Source: Faecalibacterium longum CLA-AA-H243
Lineage (GTDB): Bacteria > Bacillota > Clostridia > Oscillospirales > Ruminococcaceae
Direction: 5' to 3'
NCBI RefSeq assembly: GCF_020687245.1
Contig: NZ_JAJEQG010000002.1
Span: 1-64,000 of the forward strand
Length of the DNA: 64,000 nt
This document shows, piece after piece, positions 10,778 through 30,000 of this stretch (positions within the stretch are counted from its first letter, which is position 1; the number at the start of each line of letters is the position of its first letter). Under the pieces are notes generated by a model. The model searched no databases and was not told the origin of the DNA. It was given only the letters and a program-made list of their open reading frames with translations. The position numbers were made by a program, and so were the translations under genes.

Positions 10778-10857
10778 TGCGGGAGAAGGGGGTCGAACCC
10801 TCACTCCGTTGGAACTGGTGCCTAAAACCAGCGCGTCTGCCATTCCGCCACTCCCGC
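10778..10857 (-). tRNA. tRNA-Leu (anticodon TAG)
   Basis: Acceptor arms GCGGGAG/CTCCCGC pair fully. The anticodon stem CTGGT/ACCAG holds the loop TTTAGGC, giving anticodon TAG. The variable arm is long (class II) with a TCC/GGA stem. The T-arm GAGGG-TTCGACC-CCCTT is normal, and CCA is not encoded. It reads away from the chromosome genes towards the mobile element. Confidence 0.95.
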
Positions 10858-20942: not shown

Positions 20943-20971
20943 TTGACATTTTGACAAAGATTGTTTAAGAT
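20943..20971 (+). promoter_or_regulatory. Sigma-A promoter of the potABCD leader
   Basis: Consensus TTGACA and TAAGAT with a 17-bp spacer. Initiation near 20978 leaves about 300 nt before potA. Confidence 0.8.
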
Positions 20972-20977
20972 AGACAA

Positions 20978-21246
20978 GACAGGGCAGAATAACTGCGCAA
21001 TGTTACGGTCGTCATGGATGTTGTGCGGGGATGAGTCTGCTCCCACAGCCAGCACATATTGGATGGGCGAGGCGTTTTTGCGTCAGACAAGGAGGGCTTC
21101 CGCAGCAATCCTGACGGATTGCAAGGGAGAACGACGCGGTATGACACGAAAAAGGCCGTTCAGACGGTGTGGGATGGTTGTGGGAATAGACTCAAAGTCA
21201 CCCTAATGCGATAGAAGGATGGGGGAGTAAACCCCTGTCTTTTTTC
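20978..21246 (+). ncRNA. Structured leader RNA with terminator, candidate riboswitch upstream of potA
   Basis: Between the promoter and the potA ribosome binding site lie about 270 nt without a gene. The 5' end (GACAGGG, 20978-20984) is complementary to CCCTGTC (21233-21239), which is followed at once by T residues, so the whole leader can be closed by a long-range helix. Inside, GCGTC and GACGC flank the perfect hairpin GCAATCC-TGAC-GGATTGC. A competing local hairpin GGGG-AGTAAA-CCCC sits just before the T-run. This geometry, with alternative pairings of the same 3' strand, is that of a transcription-attenuating riboswitch or a self-terminating RNA. I recognise no known consensus. Confidence 0.55.
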
Positions 21247-21279
21247 GTATCTGAGTTACAAGGAGGATATAGGAAAGAA

Positions 21280-22326
<1,047 letters not shown>

Positions 22327-22332
22327 GGCCGC

Positions 22333-23148
22333 ATGAAGATTTACGATAAGAAACTGGCCTATCCGTACTTTGTATGGATGGTGCTGTTCACGGTGGTGCC
22401 GTTATTCATCGTGGTGTATTACGCCCTCACCGACTCCACCGGCAGCTTTACGCTGGACAATCTGGTGACCGTCAGCGGCTATGGCTCGGTGTTCGCCCGC
22501 AGCCTGCTGCTGGCCATCATCTCCACCGTCGTCTGCCTCATCATCGCGTTTCCGGTGGGCTATTTCCTCTCCCGGCTGCGCGTCAACAAGCAGCACATCA
22601 TGCTGATGCTGGTGATGCTGCCCATGTGGATGAACTTTCTGCTCCGTACCTACGCATGGATGGGTCTGTTGAGCATCAACGGCCCTGTGAATGCCGTTCT
22701 GGGCGTCTTCGGCCTCGGACCCTACAACATGCTGAATACCTCCGGCGCTGTGGTGCTGGGCATGGTGTACAACTATGTGCCGTATATGATCCTGCCCCTC
22801 TACACCAGCATGACCAAAATCGACCAGAGCATCGTGGAGGCGGCGCAGGACCTGGGCGCTTCCACCACCAAGACTCTGTTCCGGGTGCTCATCCCCATGA
22901 GCATCCCCGGCATCAGCACCGGCATCACGATGGTGTTCGTCCCGGCGGTGTCCACCTTCGTTATCAGCCGTATGCTGGGCGGCGGTTCCAACCTGCTCAT
23001 CGGCGATTTGATCGAGATGCAGTTCCTCGGCAACAGCTACAACCTCAATGTCGGCTCTGCCATGAGCCTCGTGCTGATGGTCATCGTGCTGCTCTGCATG
23101 AGCTTTACGTCCAGCTTCGACGAGGATGAGATGGAGGGTGTGTCCTGA
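22333..23148 (+). CDS. potB: Spermidine/putrescine ABC permease PotB
   Basis: A 271-residue inner-membrane permease with six hydrophobic segments and the EAA coupling loop VEAAQDLGASTTKTLFRVLIP (abridged; near residues 170-190). It begins six bases after potA and overlaps potC by one base. With PotC it forms the heterodimeric channel of the polyamine importer. Confidence 0.95.
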   Translation: MKIYDKKLAYPYFVWMVLFTVVPLFIVVYYALTDSTGSFTLDNLVTVSGYGSVFARSLLLAIISTVVCLIIAFPVGYFLSRLRVNKQHIMLMLVMLPMWMNFLLRTYAWMGLLSINGPVNAVLGVFGLGPYNMLNTSGAVVLGMVYNYVPYMILPLYTSMTKIDQSIVEAAQDLGASTTKTLFRVLIPMSIPGISTGITMVFVPAVSTFVISRMLGGGSNLLIGDLIEMQFLGNSYNLNVGSAMSLVLMVIVLLCMSFTSSFDEDEMEGVS

Positions 23149-23996
23149 TGAAAACGAAACATCTGCGTCTGATGCAGCGCGCCTATGTCATCCTGTTTTT
23201 CTGCTTCATGTACCTGCCCATCGCGTACATGGTCGTGTTCAGCTTCAACCAGAGCAAGGGCTACGCCCTCTTTACCGGCTTTACCTTTAAGTGGTACACC
23301 AGCCTGCTCCACAACGAGTCCATCCTGCACGCGCTGTGGGTGTCGCTGTATCTGGCACTGTTCTCGGCGGTCATCGCCACCGTGCTGGGGACTGCGGCGT
23401 CTCTGGGCATCGCTTCCATGGGGCGCAAGAGCCGCCTGCTGGTGACGAATATCACCTATATCACCACGGTCAACCCCGAGATCATCACCGGTATCTCCCT
23501 GATGATGCTCTTTGTGGCATACCAGCGCTTTGCGTCTGAGCTGGACTTCCTGCCCGACAACATCATGGGCTTTCCCACGCTGCTCATCGCCCATATCGCG
23601 TTCAACGTGCCGTATGTCATCTTCAATGTCACACCCAAGCTCAAACAGCTGGACATCAAGCTGTTTGAGGCGGCGCTGGACCTCGGCTGTGACCCCCGGC
23701 AGGCATTTTTCAAGGTCATCCTGCCCGAGATCAGTCCGGCCATCCTGTCGGGCTTCCTCATCAGCCTGACCTACTCCATCGACGACTTCATGATCTCCTA
23801 CTTCAACTGCGGTACGGTGGAGACACTGCCCATCGCCATCTACTCCATGACCCGCAAGAAGGTCAGTCCGGAGATCTACGCGCTGTCCACCATCATGTTC
23901 GTGGTCATTCTGAGCATCATCCTCATCTCCAACGCCATGGAGAGCCGCGGTTACCGCCGCGACCAGCGCGCACTGAGAGGGGGAGATGTCAAATGA
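23148..23996 (+). CDS. potC: Spermidine/putrescine ABC permease PotC
   Basis: A 282-residue membrane permease with six hydrophobic segments and EAA loop FEAALDLGCDPRQAFFKVIL (about residues 175-195). The IDDFMISYF segment is characteristic of PotC. The start overlaps the potB stop (TGATG) and the end overlaps potD by four bases, so translation is coupled through the whole operon. Confidence 0.95.
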   Translation: MKTKHLRLMQRAYVILFFCFMYLPIAYMVVFSFNQSKGYALFTGFTFKWYTSLLHNESILHALWVSLYLALFSAVIATVLGTAASLGIASMGRKSRLLVTNITYITTVNPEIITGISLMMLFVAYQRFASELDFLPDNIMGFPTLLIAHIAFNVPYVIFNVTPKLKQLDIKLFEAALDLGCDPRQAFFKVILPEISPAILSGFLISLTYSIDDFMISYFNCGTVETLPIAIYSMTRKKVSPEIYALSTIMFVVILSIILISNAMESRGYRRDQRALRGGDVK

Positions 23997-25225
23997 AGCG
24001 TTTCGTCATTCTTCTGCTGACGGCTGTACTGGCGCTGACCATGCCGCTGTCGGCTCTGGCCGCAGGACAGATCGAGGTCACAGAGGACATTTCTGTTTCA
24101 GATGACTACGACTGGACCCGCTTCAAGGGCCAGAATGTCACCCTGAACGTCTACAACTGGGGCGAGTATATCTCCAACGGTTCCGACGACAGCGTGGACG
24201 TGGTGGCGGCCTTTGAAAAGCTGACCGGCATCAAGGTCAACTATACCACCTTCGACTCCAACGAGTCCCTCTACGCCAAGCTGAAGTCCGGCGCGGCCAA
24301 CTACGATGTCATAATTCCGTCGGACTATATGGTCGCCAAGATGATAAGCGAAGGAATGCTGATGCCGCTGGACTACAGCAACATCCCGAACTTCCAGAAC
24401 ATCGACGAGGAGTACCGCAACGGGGACTATGACCCCGAGAACGCCTACACCGTGCCTTACACCCTCTGCACCACTGGCATCATCTACAATACAAAGATGG
24501 TAGACGAGGCCCCCACCAGCTGGGCAGACCTGTGGGACGAGAAGTATGCAGGCAACATCCTGATGTTCAACAACAGCCGCGACGCCTACGCCATCGGTGC
24601 GTTCAAGAGCGGCAGCAGCGTCAACCCCCAGACCACGGAGGGTGTGGATGCTGTGGTGGACGAGCTGAAAGCCCAGAAGCCTCTGGTGCAGGCCTATGTC
24701 ATGGACGAGATCTTCGATAAGATGATCGGCAGCGAGGCGGCCGTCGGCGTCTACTACTCCGGCGACGCCATCACCATGATTGACGACAACCCCGATCTGG
24801 CCTGGGTGTTCCCTGAGGAGGGAACGGTGCTGTCGGTGGACAGCATGGCCATCCCCGCCACCAGTGAGCACGAGGAAGCTGCAGAGATGTTCATCAACTT
24901 CATGTGTGCACCGGACGTCGGCAAGGCCAATATCGAGTATATCGGCTACACCACCCCCATGCACTGTGTGTGGGAGCTTCTGGATGAAGACCTCAAGTAC
25001 AGCGAGATCGCGTACCCCTCCGAGGACATTGCGGCCAAAGAAGAGGTGTTCACTGCCCTGAGCGATGAGGTCAACAGCGAGCTGGACGTGAAGTGGAGCG
25101 AGATGAAGAGCTACGACGAGGGCGGCAGCGGGTATCTGTTCCTGATGCTGCTGGCGGCGATGCTGGCTCTGGCCTGCTTCAATATCTGGCGCAAGGTGCG
25201 CAGGAAAACGCGCAATATGTATTGA
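23993..25225 (+). CDS. potD: Spermidine/putrescine-binding protein PotD with C-terminal membrane anchor
   Basis: A 410-residue solute-binding protein: a signal sequence (MKRFVILLLTAVLALTMPLS, likely cut after ALA near 22-23), then a PotD/PotF fold with YNWGEYIS, PSDYMVAKM and WADLWDEKY. There is no lipobox Cys. Instead the last ~30 residues form a hydrophobic helix (YLFLMLLAAMLALACF) followed by a basic tail, so the binding protein is probably tethered by its C-terminus and not by a lipid. That is unusual for Gram-positive binding proteins. Last gene of the operon. Confidence 0.95.
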   Translation: MKRFVILLLTAVLALTMPLSALAAGQIEVTEDISVSDDYDWTRFKGQNVTLNVYNWGEYISNGSDDSVDVVAAFEKLTGIKVNYTTFDSNESLYAKLKSGAANYDVIIPSDYMVAKMISEGMLMPLDYSNIPNFQNIDEEYRNGDYDPENAYTVPYTLCTTGIIYNTKMVDEAPTSWADLWDEKYAGNILMFNNSRDAYAIGAFKSGSSVNPQTTEGVDAVVDELKAQKPLVQAYVMDEIFDKMIGSEAAVGVYYSGDAITMIDDNPDLAWVFPEEGTVLSVDSMAIPATSEHEEAAEMFINFMCAPDVGKANIEYIGYTTPMHCVWELLDEDLKYSEIAYPSEDIAAKEEVFTALSDEVNSELDVKWSEMKSYDEGGSGYLFLMLLAAMLALACFNIWRKVRRKTRNMY

Positions 25226-26094: not shown

Positions 26095-26270
26095 ACAGAA
26101 AGGGCAAGACCCTTCTGGATCATGAAATCTTTTTCTTCTTGTTTTTTGGAATATCGGGTGTCCGCCATCCTCCTCCGGCTGTTCTCCTTCGCAGCTGTCG
26201 GCCGACACCGCACAGGCGATATTCCGCTTCGTGTGCAAAAGAGCCCGTCTGGTTTCGGACGGGCTTTTTT
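26095..26270 (+). ncRNA. Candidate structured small RNA, about 175 nt
   Basis: Bounded by a promoter and an intrinsic terminator with no coding potential between. It can fold into a short 5' hairpin (CAGAA/TTCTG closing GGG/CCC, 26096-26117). A long helix follows: GGAATATCG (26148-26156) pairs with CGATATTCC (26217-26225), and the adjoining GGTGTC (26157-26162) pairs with GACACC (26204-26209). Inside lie a C/U-rich internal loop (CCATCCTCCTC) and an apical CGGCTG/CAGCTG stem. The CCTCCTCC stretch is complementary to Shine-Dalgarno sequences, as in many trans-acting sRNAs. A closed stem with a large central bubble also recalls 6S RNA. Identity unknown. Confidence 0.6.
26242..26270 (+). terminator. 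Strong terminator of the candidate small RNA
   Basis: AGCCCGTC pairs with GACGGGCT, followed by a T-run. Confidence 0.9.
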
Positions 26271-29916: not shown

Positions 29917-30000
29917 GCCACTGTGGTGAAATTGGCAGACACGAGGGACTTAAAATCCCTTTCTGGAGACAGAGTGCGGGTTCAAGCCCCGCCGGTGGCA
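29917..30000 (+). tRNA. tRNA-Leu (anticodon TAA)
   Basis: 84 nt. Acceptor arms GCCACTG/CGGTGGC pair with one G-T. The anticodon stem AGGGA/TCCCT holds CTTAAAA, giving anticodon TAA. The long variable arm (TTCTGGAGACAGAGT) and T-arm GCGGG-TTCAAGC-CCCGC are normal class II leucine features. CCA is not encoded. Confidence 0.96.

Follow-up and report, generated by a model that had tools for sequence, protein, structure and literature searches.

Attenuators known as ABC-leaders have been described for operons of ABC transporters, among them that of potABCD in Haemophilus somnus and Pasteurella multocida, and they resemble the leader considered here in placing a terminator and, as we propose for ours, an anti-terminator upstream of potABCD (PMC2965389). 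The likeness is one of description; these ABC-leaders are gammaproteobacterial, and our leader is interrupted by a repeat. The one class of spermidine riboswitch with direct evidence in the open-licence papers searched is a rare variant of SAM-I, a transcription-terminating off switch that controls biosynthesis genes (PMC10853860, partial text). It shares with our leader, as proposed below, the link to polyamines and the use of transcription termination, but it is a SAM-I variant, whereas no SAM family of Rfam is found in our leader or in the scanned loci with the potA leader RNA of relatives. In Borrelia burgdorferi potB, 3′ ends depend on spermidine and the importer mRNA is shortened when spermidine is high, although this 3′ end lies inside the potB coding region and not in a leader (PMC10319736, partial text). 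The potE and odc1 motifs are candidate regulatory RNAs beside polyamine genes, but these genes differ from potA, a name that is absent from the main text of that report (PMC8632094). The available text of PMC11109978 has no occurrence of potA, spermidine or polyamine.

The locus that we compare with these systems lies in a window of 64,000 nucleotides, the whole stretch of DNA that was analysed, from Faecalibacterium longum CLA-AA-H243; coordinates are positions in this window and the features of the locus are all on the + strand. The operon begins with potA, the ATPase of a spermidine/putrescine importer (21280-22326; NCBIfam NF043075, 554.7 bits with a cut-off of 550), followed by a potB-like permease (22333-23148), for which PotB is the top NCBIfam model at a score under the curated cut-off, a potC-like permease (23148-23996), for which polyamine permease models rank first, again under the curated cut-off, and a potD-like substrate-binding protein (23993-25225), which scores under the cut-off of NCBIfam PotD and matches PDB 4eqb at E 1.4e-72. 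The named PotA records closest to the window PotA are from Faecalibacterium and are 91% identical to it. An initial annotation, made from the sequence without database searches, had read potABCD as a polyamine importer transcribed from a consensus promoter, and both readings hold. PotA scores above its NCBIfam cut-off and the solved structure nearest to PotD is 4eqb, a spermidine/putrescine-binding protein; the promoter (20943-20971), with a -35 element TTGACA (20943-20948), a 17-nt spacer and a -10 element TAAGAT (20966-20971), matches the consensus at 10 of 12 positions and is conserved in the homologous leaders of the genus. A Shine-Dalgarno sequence, AAGGAGG, can be read at 21260-21266.

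The RNA between this promoter and potA had been taken for a single structured leader of ~270 nt, a view that comparison with homologous leaders does not bear out. Of the ~270 nt, 163 belong to a palindromic dispersed repeat, TGAGTCT...AGACTCA (21032-21194, delimited by leader alignment with ends uncertain by 1-2 nt), which is missing from the homologous leaders. A DNA search of 61 genomes found further occurrences of the middle part of the leader in its own genome and in relatives, and this search and the leader alignment place the outer parts of the leader contiguously, uninterrupted at the insertion point, in G011 and G028. With window positions 21030-21200 as the query, 10 copies were found in the window's own genome at E < 1e-9, the window copy included, the nine others having E-values from 1.6e-24 to 7.2e-11. 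The flanks of the copies differ, and several copies lie, by eye, directly 3′ of a terminator-like hairpin. A second copy used as the query gave matches in 6 of 31 same-genus genomes, and full-length copies are present among these 31 in G000 (the window genome), G009, G011, G029 and G030; the many matches to the ends only suggest that shorter versions of the repeat exist. RNAalifold applied to 15 aligned copies predicts 60 pairs, 29 of them with double changes. As in MITE-like elements, many copies occur at unrelated sites and have terminal inverted repeats; by eye, no constant target-site duplication was recognised at the ends of the copies. Like MITE-like or ERIC-like repeats, the element is small, palindromic, non-coding, intergenic and multi-copy, with long and apparently short versions. 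A copy 68% similar is present at L015 in a genome from another family of the order (G049), its central hairpin kept through compensatory changes, and at L021 in G029 an insert of ~50 nt with ends resembling the repeat occupies the insertion point seen in the window.

The fold of 20978-21247 is far stabler than chance (z = -8.3), as would be expected if the whole 270-nt RNA, repeat included, were one functional riboswitch or sRNA. This strong score is, however, explained by the inserted repeat, which folds strongly by itself (21032-21194 alone, z = -8.8), whereas six natural repeat-free leaders are modestly better than shuffles (z = -0.8 to -2.9). The stable part has no counterpart in the leaders of G011, G028, G006 and others and also occurs at unrelated sites. 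We consider a function of the whole RNA highly improbable and reject one 270-nt riboswitch because most of the RNA is dispersed repeat. The nested stem-loop of GCGTC/GACGC and GCAATCC/GGATTGC, to which the initial annotation had drawn attention, does exist in the sequence but is part of the repeat and lies outside the native leader.

We propose that the native RNA is probably, though by no means certainly, a short transcription attenuator before potABCD, so far found in the genus only, that was invaded by the scattered palindromic repeat. The feature in the window, an attenuator-like leader that a repeat has split, is of an ordinary kind but in an unusual condition. Its presumed 5′ end is segment a, GACAGGG (20978-20984), which is largely kept in homologues and is followed by a 12-bp hairpin, P2, located by folding (20993-21028, with arms 20993-21004 and 21017-21028). 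Beyond the repeat lie segment b, CCCT (21201-21204), assigned from the fold and from forced folds, segment c, GATGGGG (21218-21224), the 5′ arm of a terminator identified by its pairing with segment d in homologues, and segment d itself, CCCTGTC (21233-21239), the 3′ arm, which with its T6 tract (21240-21245) spans 21233-21245. In 11 repeat-free homologues, which form the basis of the pairing counts and of covariance model R1, the distance from segment a through the last T of the T-run is 94-121 nt, and T6CGTATC after segment d is invariant. At L030 in G030 a small hairpin is inserted in the P2 loop, and G009 also has a small hairpin insert, at a point different from that of the window.

In the terminated state, segment a would pair with segment b around P2, leaving segment c free to pair with segment d and form the intrinsic terminator. 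In the read-through state, segment a would pair with segment d and segment b with segment c, so that the terminator would be absent and read-through would supply potABCD. The repeat, lying between P2 and segment b, folds on itself, and therefore both states are still possible in the window. The leader would switch between these states in vivo, and the signal may be related to polyamines.

Two elements of this model were seen in the initial annotation and stand: the first seven bases, segment a, are complementary to the CCCTGTC directly before the T6 tract, and a competing terminator hairpin, GATGGGG/CCCTGTC, is present. As in ABC-leaders, an intrinsic terminator between the promoter and potABCD, consisting of this hairpin and T6, is conserved in the 11 homologues, where the c:d pairing holds in 98.7% of cells and that of a:d in 94.8%; a:b is paired in only 81.8%, and P2, counted over 10 pairs, in 88.2%, with three pairs changed on both sides. 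A simple terminator scan of the window did not list the hairpin 21218-21239. When the two states were compared by forced folds in ViennaRNA, the energy of the a:d state minus that of the c:d state was +0.8 kcal/mol in the window and between -0.9 and +5.8 kcal/mol in 10 of the 11 homologues; in the eleventh, G025, which fits poorly in the fixed register, the a:d state lies at +12.8 kcal/mol. The existence of two near-isoenergetic states, one with a terminator and one with an anti-terminator, suggests an attenuator of potABCD. In the homologous leaders a:d and c:d are largely kept, but the covariation is weak. Pairing of a:d together with P2 reaches 90.9% of cells as against 88.5% with shuffling (reached by 2 of 500 shuffles), the terminated state (a:b, P2 and c:d) reaches 90.1% as against 89.2% (100 of 500 shuffles), and one double change supports a:d, a C-G to A-U replacement in G011 next to a mismatched pair. 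Because these column statistics fall short of proof, we hold the attenuator to be the likeliest reading rather than a demonstrated one.

The same counts bear on a simpler explanation, in which a fixed, leaky terminator merely sets the level of potABCD, while a:d serves to stabilise the 5′ end and the leader responds to no signal. This accords with the behaviour of c:d, which varies least among the helices (98.7%) and is the free-energy minimum for the window and for 10 of the 11 homologues, as well as with the weak covariation of the switch, but a fixed terminator would need neither the complementarity of a and d in 94.8% of cells nor states of nearly equal energy, and we judge it unlikely, if still a serious contender. 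An attenuator might also be decided by a protein rather than a metabolite, binding P2 or the palindromic terminator; the leader is small and weakly conserved, which leaves little room for an aptamer, and palindromic leaders can serve as protein targets (PMC2965389, partial text). To this version we assign a low probability.

The attenuator-like leader precedes potA in 14 of the 31 same-genus genomes; a tally of 15 would include a weak 62-nt match in G008, which we discount because the potA leader of G008 is of another type. The leaders read in the other 17 genomes, all but those of G002, G017 and G027, are of different kinds in 12 and consist of the RNA of relatives described below in G008 and G018, so that the genus has three or more types of potA leader. 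In the 12 genomes with leaders of other kinds (L149-L160) the promoter is similar. Model R1, run on 148 family genomes, gave four matches beyond G000, all weak (26.5-32.3 bits), which we judge to be due to chance because G114, G144 and G154, three of the genomes concerned, carry the other RNA before potA elsewhere. At gathering score, Rfam has no family for the window leader (best chance-level match E = 2) or for the 11 homologous leader loci (best chance-level match E = 2.9), and riboswitch and sRNA families such as T-box, 6S, SRP and SAM were rejected for the window leader by the lack of a covariance-model match. The initial annotation's view that the RNA belongs to no known family is thereby upheld for the window leader and its 11 homologous loci. 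Its broader suggestion of an unknown regulatory RNA fares less evenly: the leader is conserved in a part of the genus and is built like a terminator with an anti-terminator, but the idea fits the different potA RNA of relatives better.

This second RNA is the unexpected result of comparing potA leaders, and it is a stronger one than the window leader. Eight of 80 loci selected by their PotA were examined for their leaders. A different leader, whose final CCGCAAAGGGG immediately precedes the start of potA, was found in Gemmiger, Fournierella and other Oscillospiraceae, and also in G008 and G018 of the same genus. Four further loci of the 80, L077, L078, L079 and L119, were covered by an Rfam scan and by a search for the two hallmark motifs, with no hit. 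Model R2, built from eight leaders and run at E <= 0.01, matched 100 places in 99 of 396 family genomes and 49 of 126 genera, the 396 being counted irrespective of the presence of potA. Of the 100 places, 72 were opened and all lie directly before potA, the remaining 28 including most of the weakest; the 72 consist of the 30 best, 40 chosen down the list, and the places in G092 and G451. All 70 of the former adjoin a protein 60-79% identical to the window PotA. Of genomes sampled from the class, 3 of 391 matched a wider model, R3, built from 54 leaders; of those from the order, 17 of 375 did. Seventeen R3 places were opened, of which those in G092 and G451 are shared with the 100 of R2 and 15 lie outside the family; 14 of these 15 stand before potA, in seven further families, and the 16 potA proteins at R3 places are 59.7-67.1% identical to that of the window. 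The exception, L250, precedes an unrelated gene and is a false positive. In total, 86 of 87 opened places lie before potA (70/70 and 16/17). The loci assigned to this RNA are L164-L233 (70 loci), L234-L236, L239-L252 except L250, L071-L076, L161 and L162, in eight families of Clostridia. E-values of R2 and R3 are rough as calibration was shortened, and the absence of a match is weak evidence because the large searches used stricter filters. A strict 20-nt pattern matched 1 of 394 order genomes, its near emptiness being due to the demand for one of several loop variants.

Three helices and a pairing of the loop with the ribosome binding site are paired in 96.1% of cells in a sequence-only alignment of 36 leaders. 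In the same alignment, shuffling the columns lowers the figure to 90.1% and sliding the structure lowers it to 38.5-59.9%; the latter comparison favours the true position, since one of the 36 sequences served to place the structure. Cells changed on both sides number 61 as against 18 expected, a count that none of 500 shuffles reaches, and RNAalifold recovers the same three helices unprompted. In an alignment of 78 leaders to the model, one that leans towards that model, double changes occur at each of the 29 pairs. The loop motif is present in 69 of 70 leaders, and L196 has it with one changed letter. The 9-bp pairing of CCUUUGCGG with CCGCAAAGG is found in 99.1% of cells in the 36 sequences and is nearly invariant, so its support is complementarity and not covariation. 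An extra closing helix, UUGCAUC/GAUGCA, was unconvincing in a crude test (at least 6 bp in 52 of 70 leaders as against 43 of 70 when shuffled); by eye, some compensatory pairs, though not many, can be recognised in it.

Rfam gave no match to this RNA at gathering score in 20 of its loci, nor at E <= 1 in 7 loci, where three hits lay outside the RNA or in other loci, nor at E <= 1 in 8 loci, where two unrelated minus-strand hits fell in L239; the scans of 20 and 8 loci share one locus. Searches of open-licence PubMed Central turned up no such RNA in a potA leader; supplements and most subscription journals, which lie outside that scope, may describe one.

Since pairing of CCUUUGCGG with CCGCAAAGG would bury the Shine-Dalgarno sequence of potA, we infer a translational off switch, and on the basis of sequence comparison the RNA is a candidate for a new class of translational riboswitch. 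It is possibly polyamine-sensing, by gene association only. As a tentative proposal, which we rate as slightly more doubtful than an even chance, the RNA would be a widespread and uncatalogued potA element of Clostridia, seen in eight sampled families, with covarying stems and a near-invariant pseudoknot hiding the ribosome binding site, that senses polyamines directly and turns import off when they are plentiful; the lineage of the window would have lost it, gained an unrelated short attenuator and then received the repeat. Among the 31 same-genus genomes R3 matches at potA in G018 and G008, and G008 has a second, weak R3 match. Neither R2 nor R3 matches in the window genome, G000, and the possibility that the window leader is a worn form of the relatives' RNA was discarded on this result and the lack of similarity by eye. 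Loss and replacement of the relatives' RNA within the genus would be the simplest history.

The window illustrates a change of control, as a single genus has no fewer than three types of potA leader and one of them carries a 163-bp repeat. The relatives' RNA, having no match to a SAM-I-type family in the loci scanned, would offer a candidate for another class of spermidine riboswitch, beside the known one, that is open to direct testing, and if true, an RNA class fixed to potA in many Clostridia would tie polyamine supply to bacterial gene control.

Elsewhere in the window, the known IMPDH RNA (RF02994, E 1.2e-27) lies at 26143-26249, upstream of a reading frame that we take, from its translation, to be IMP dehydrogenase-like. 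Rfam also places tRNA genes at 29917-30000 on the + strand and at 10778-10857 on the - strand.
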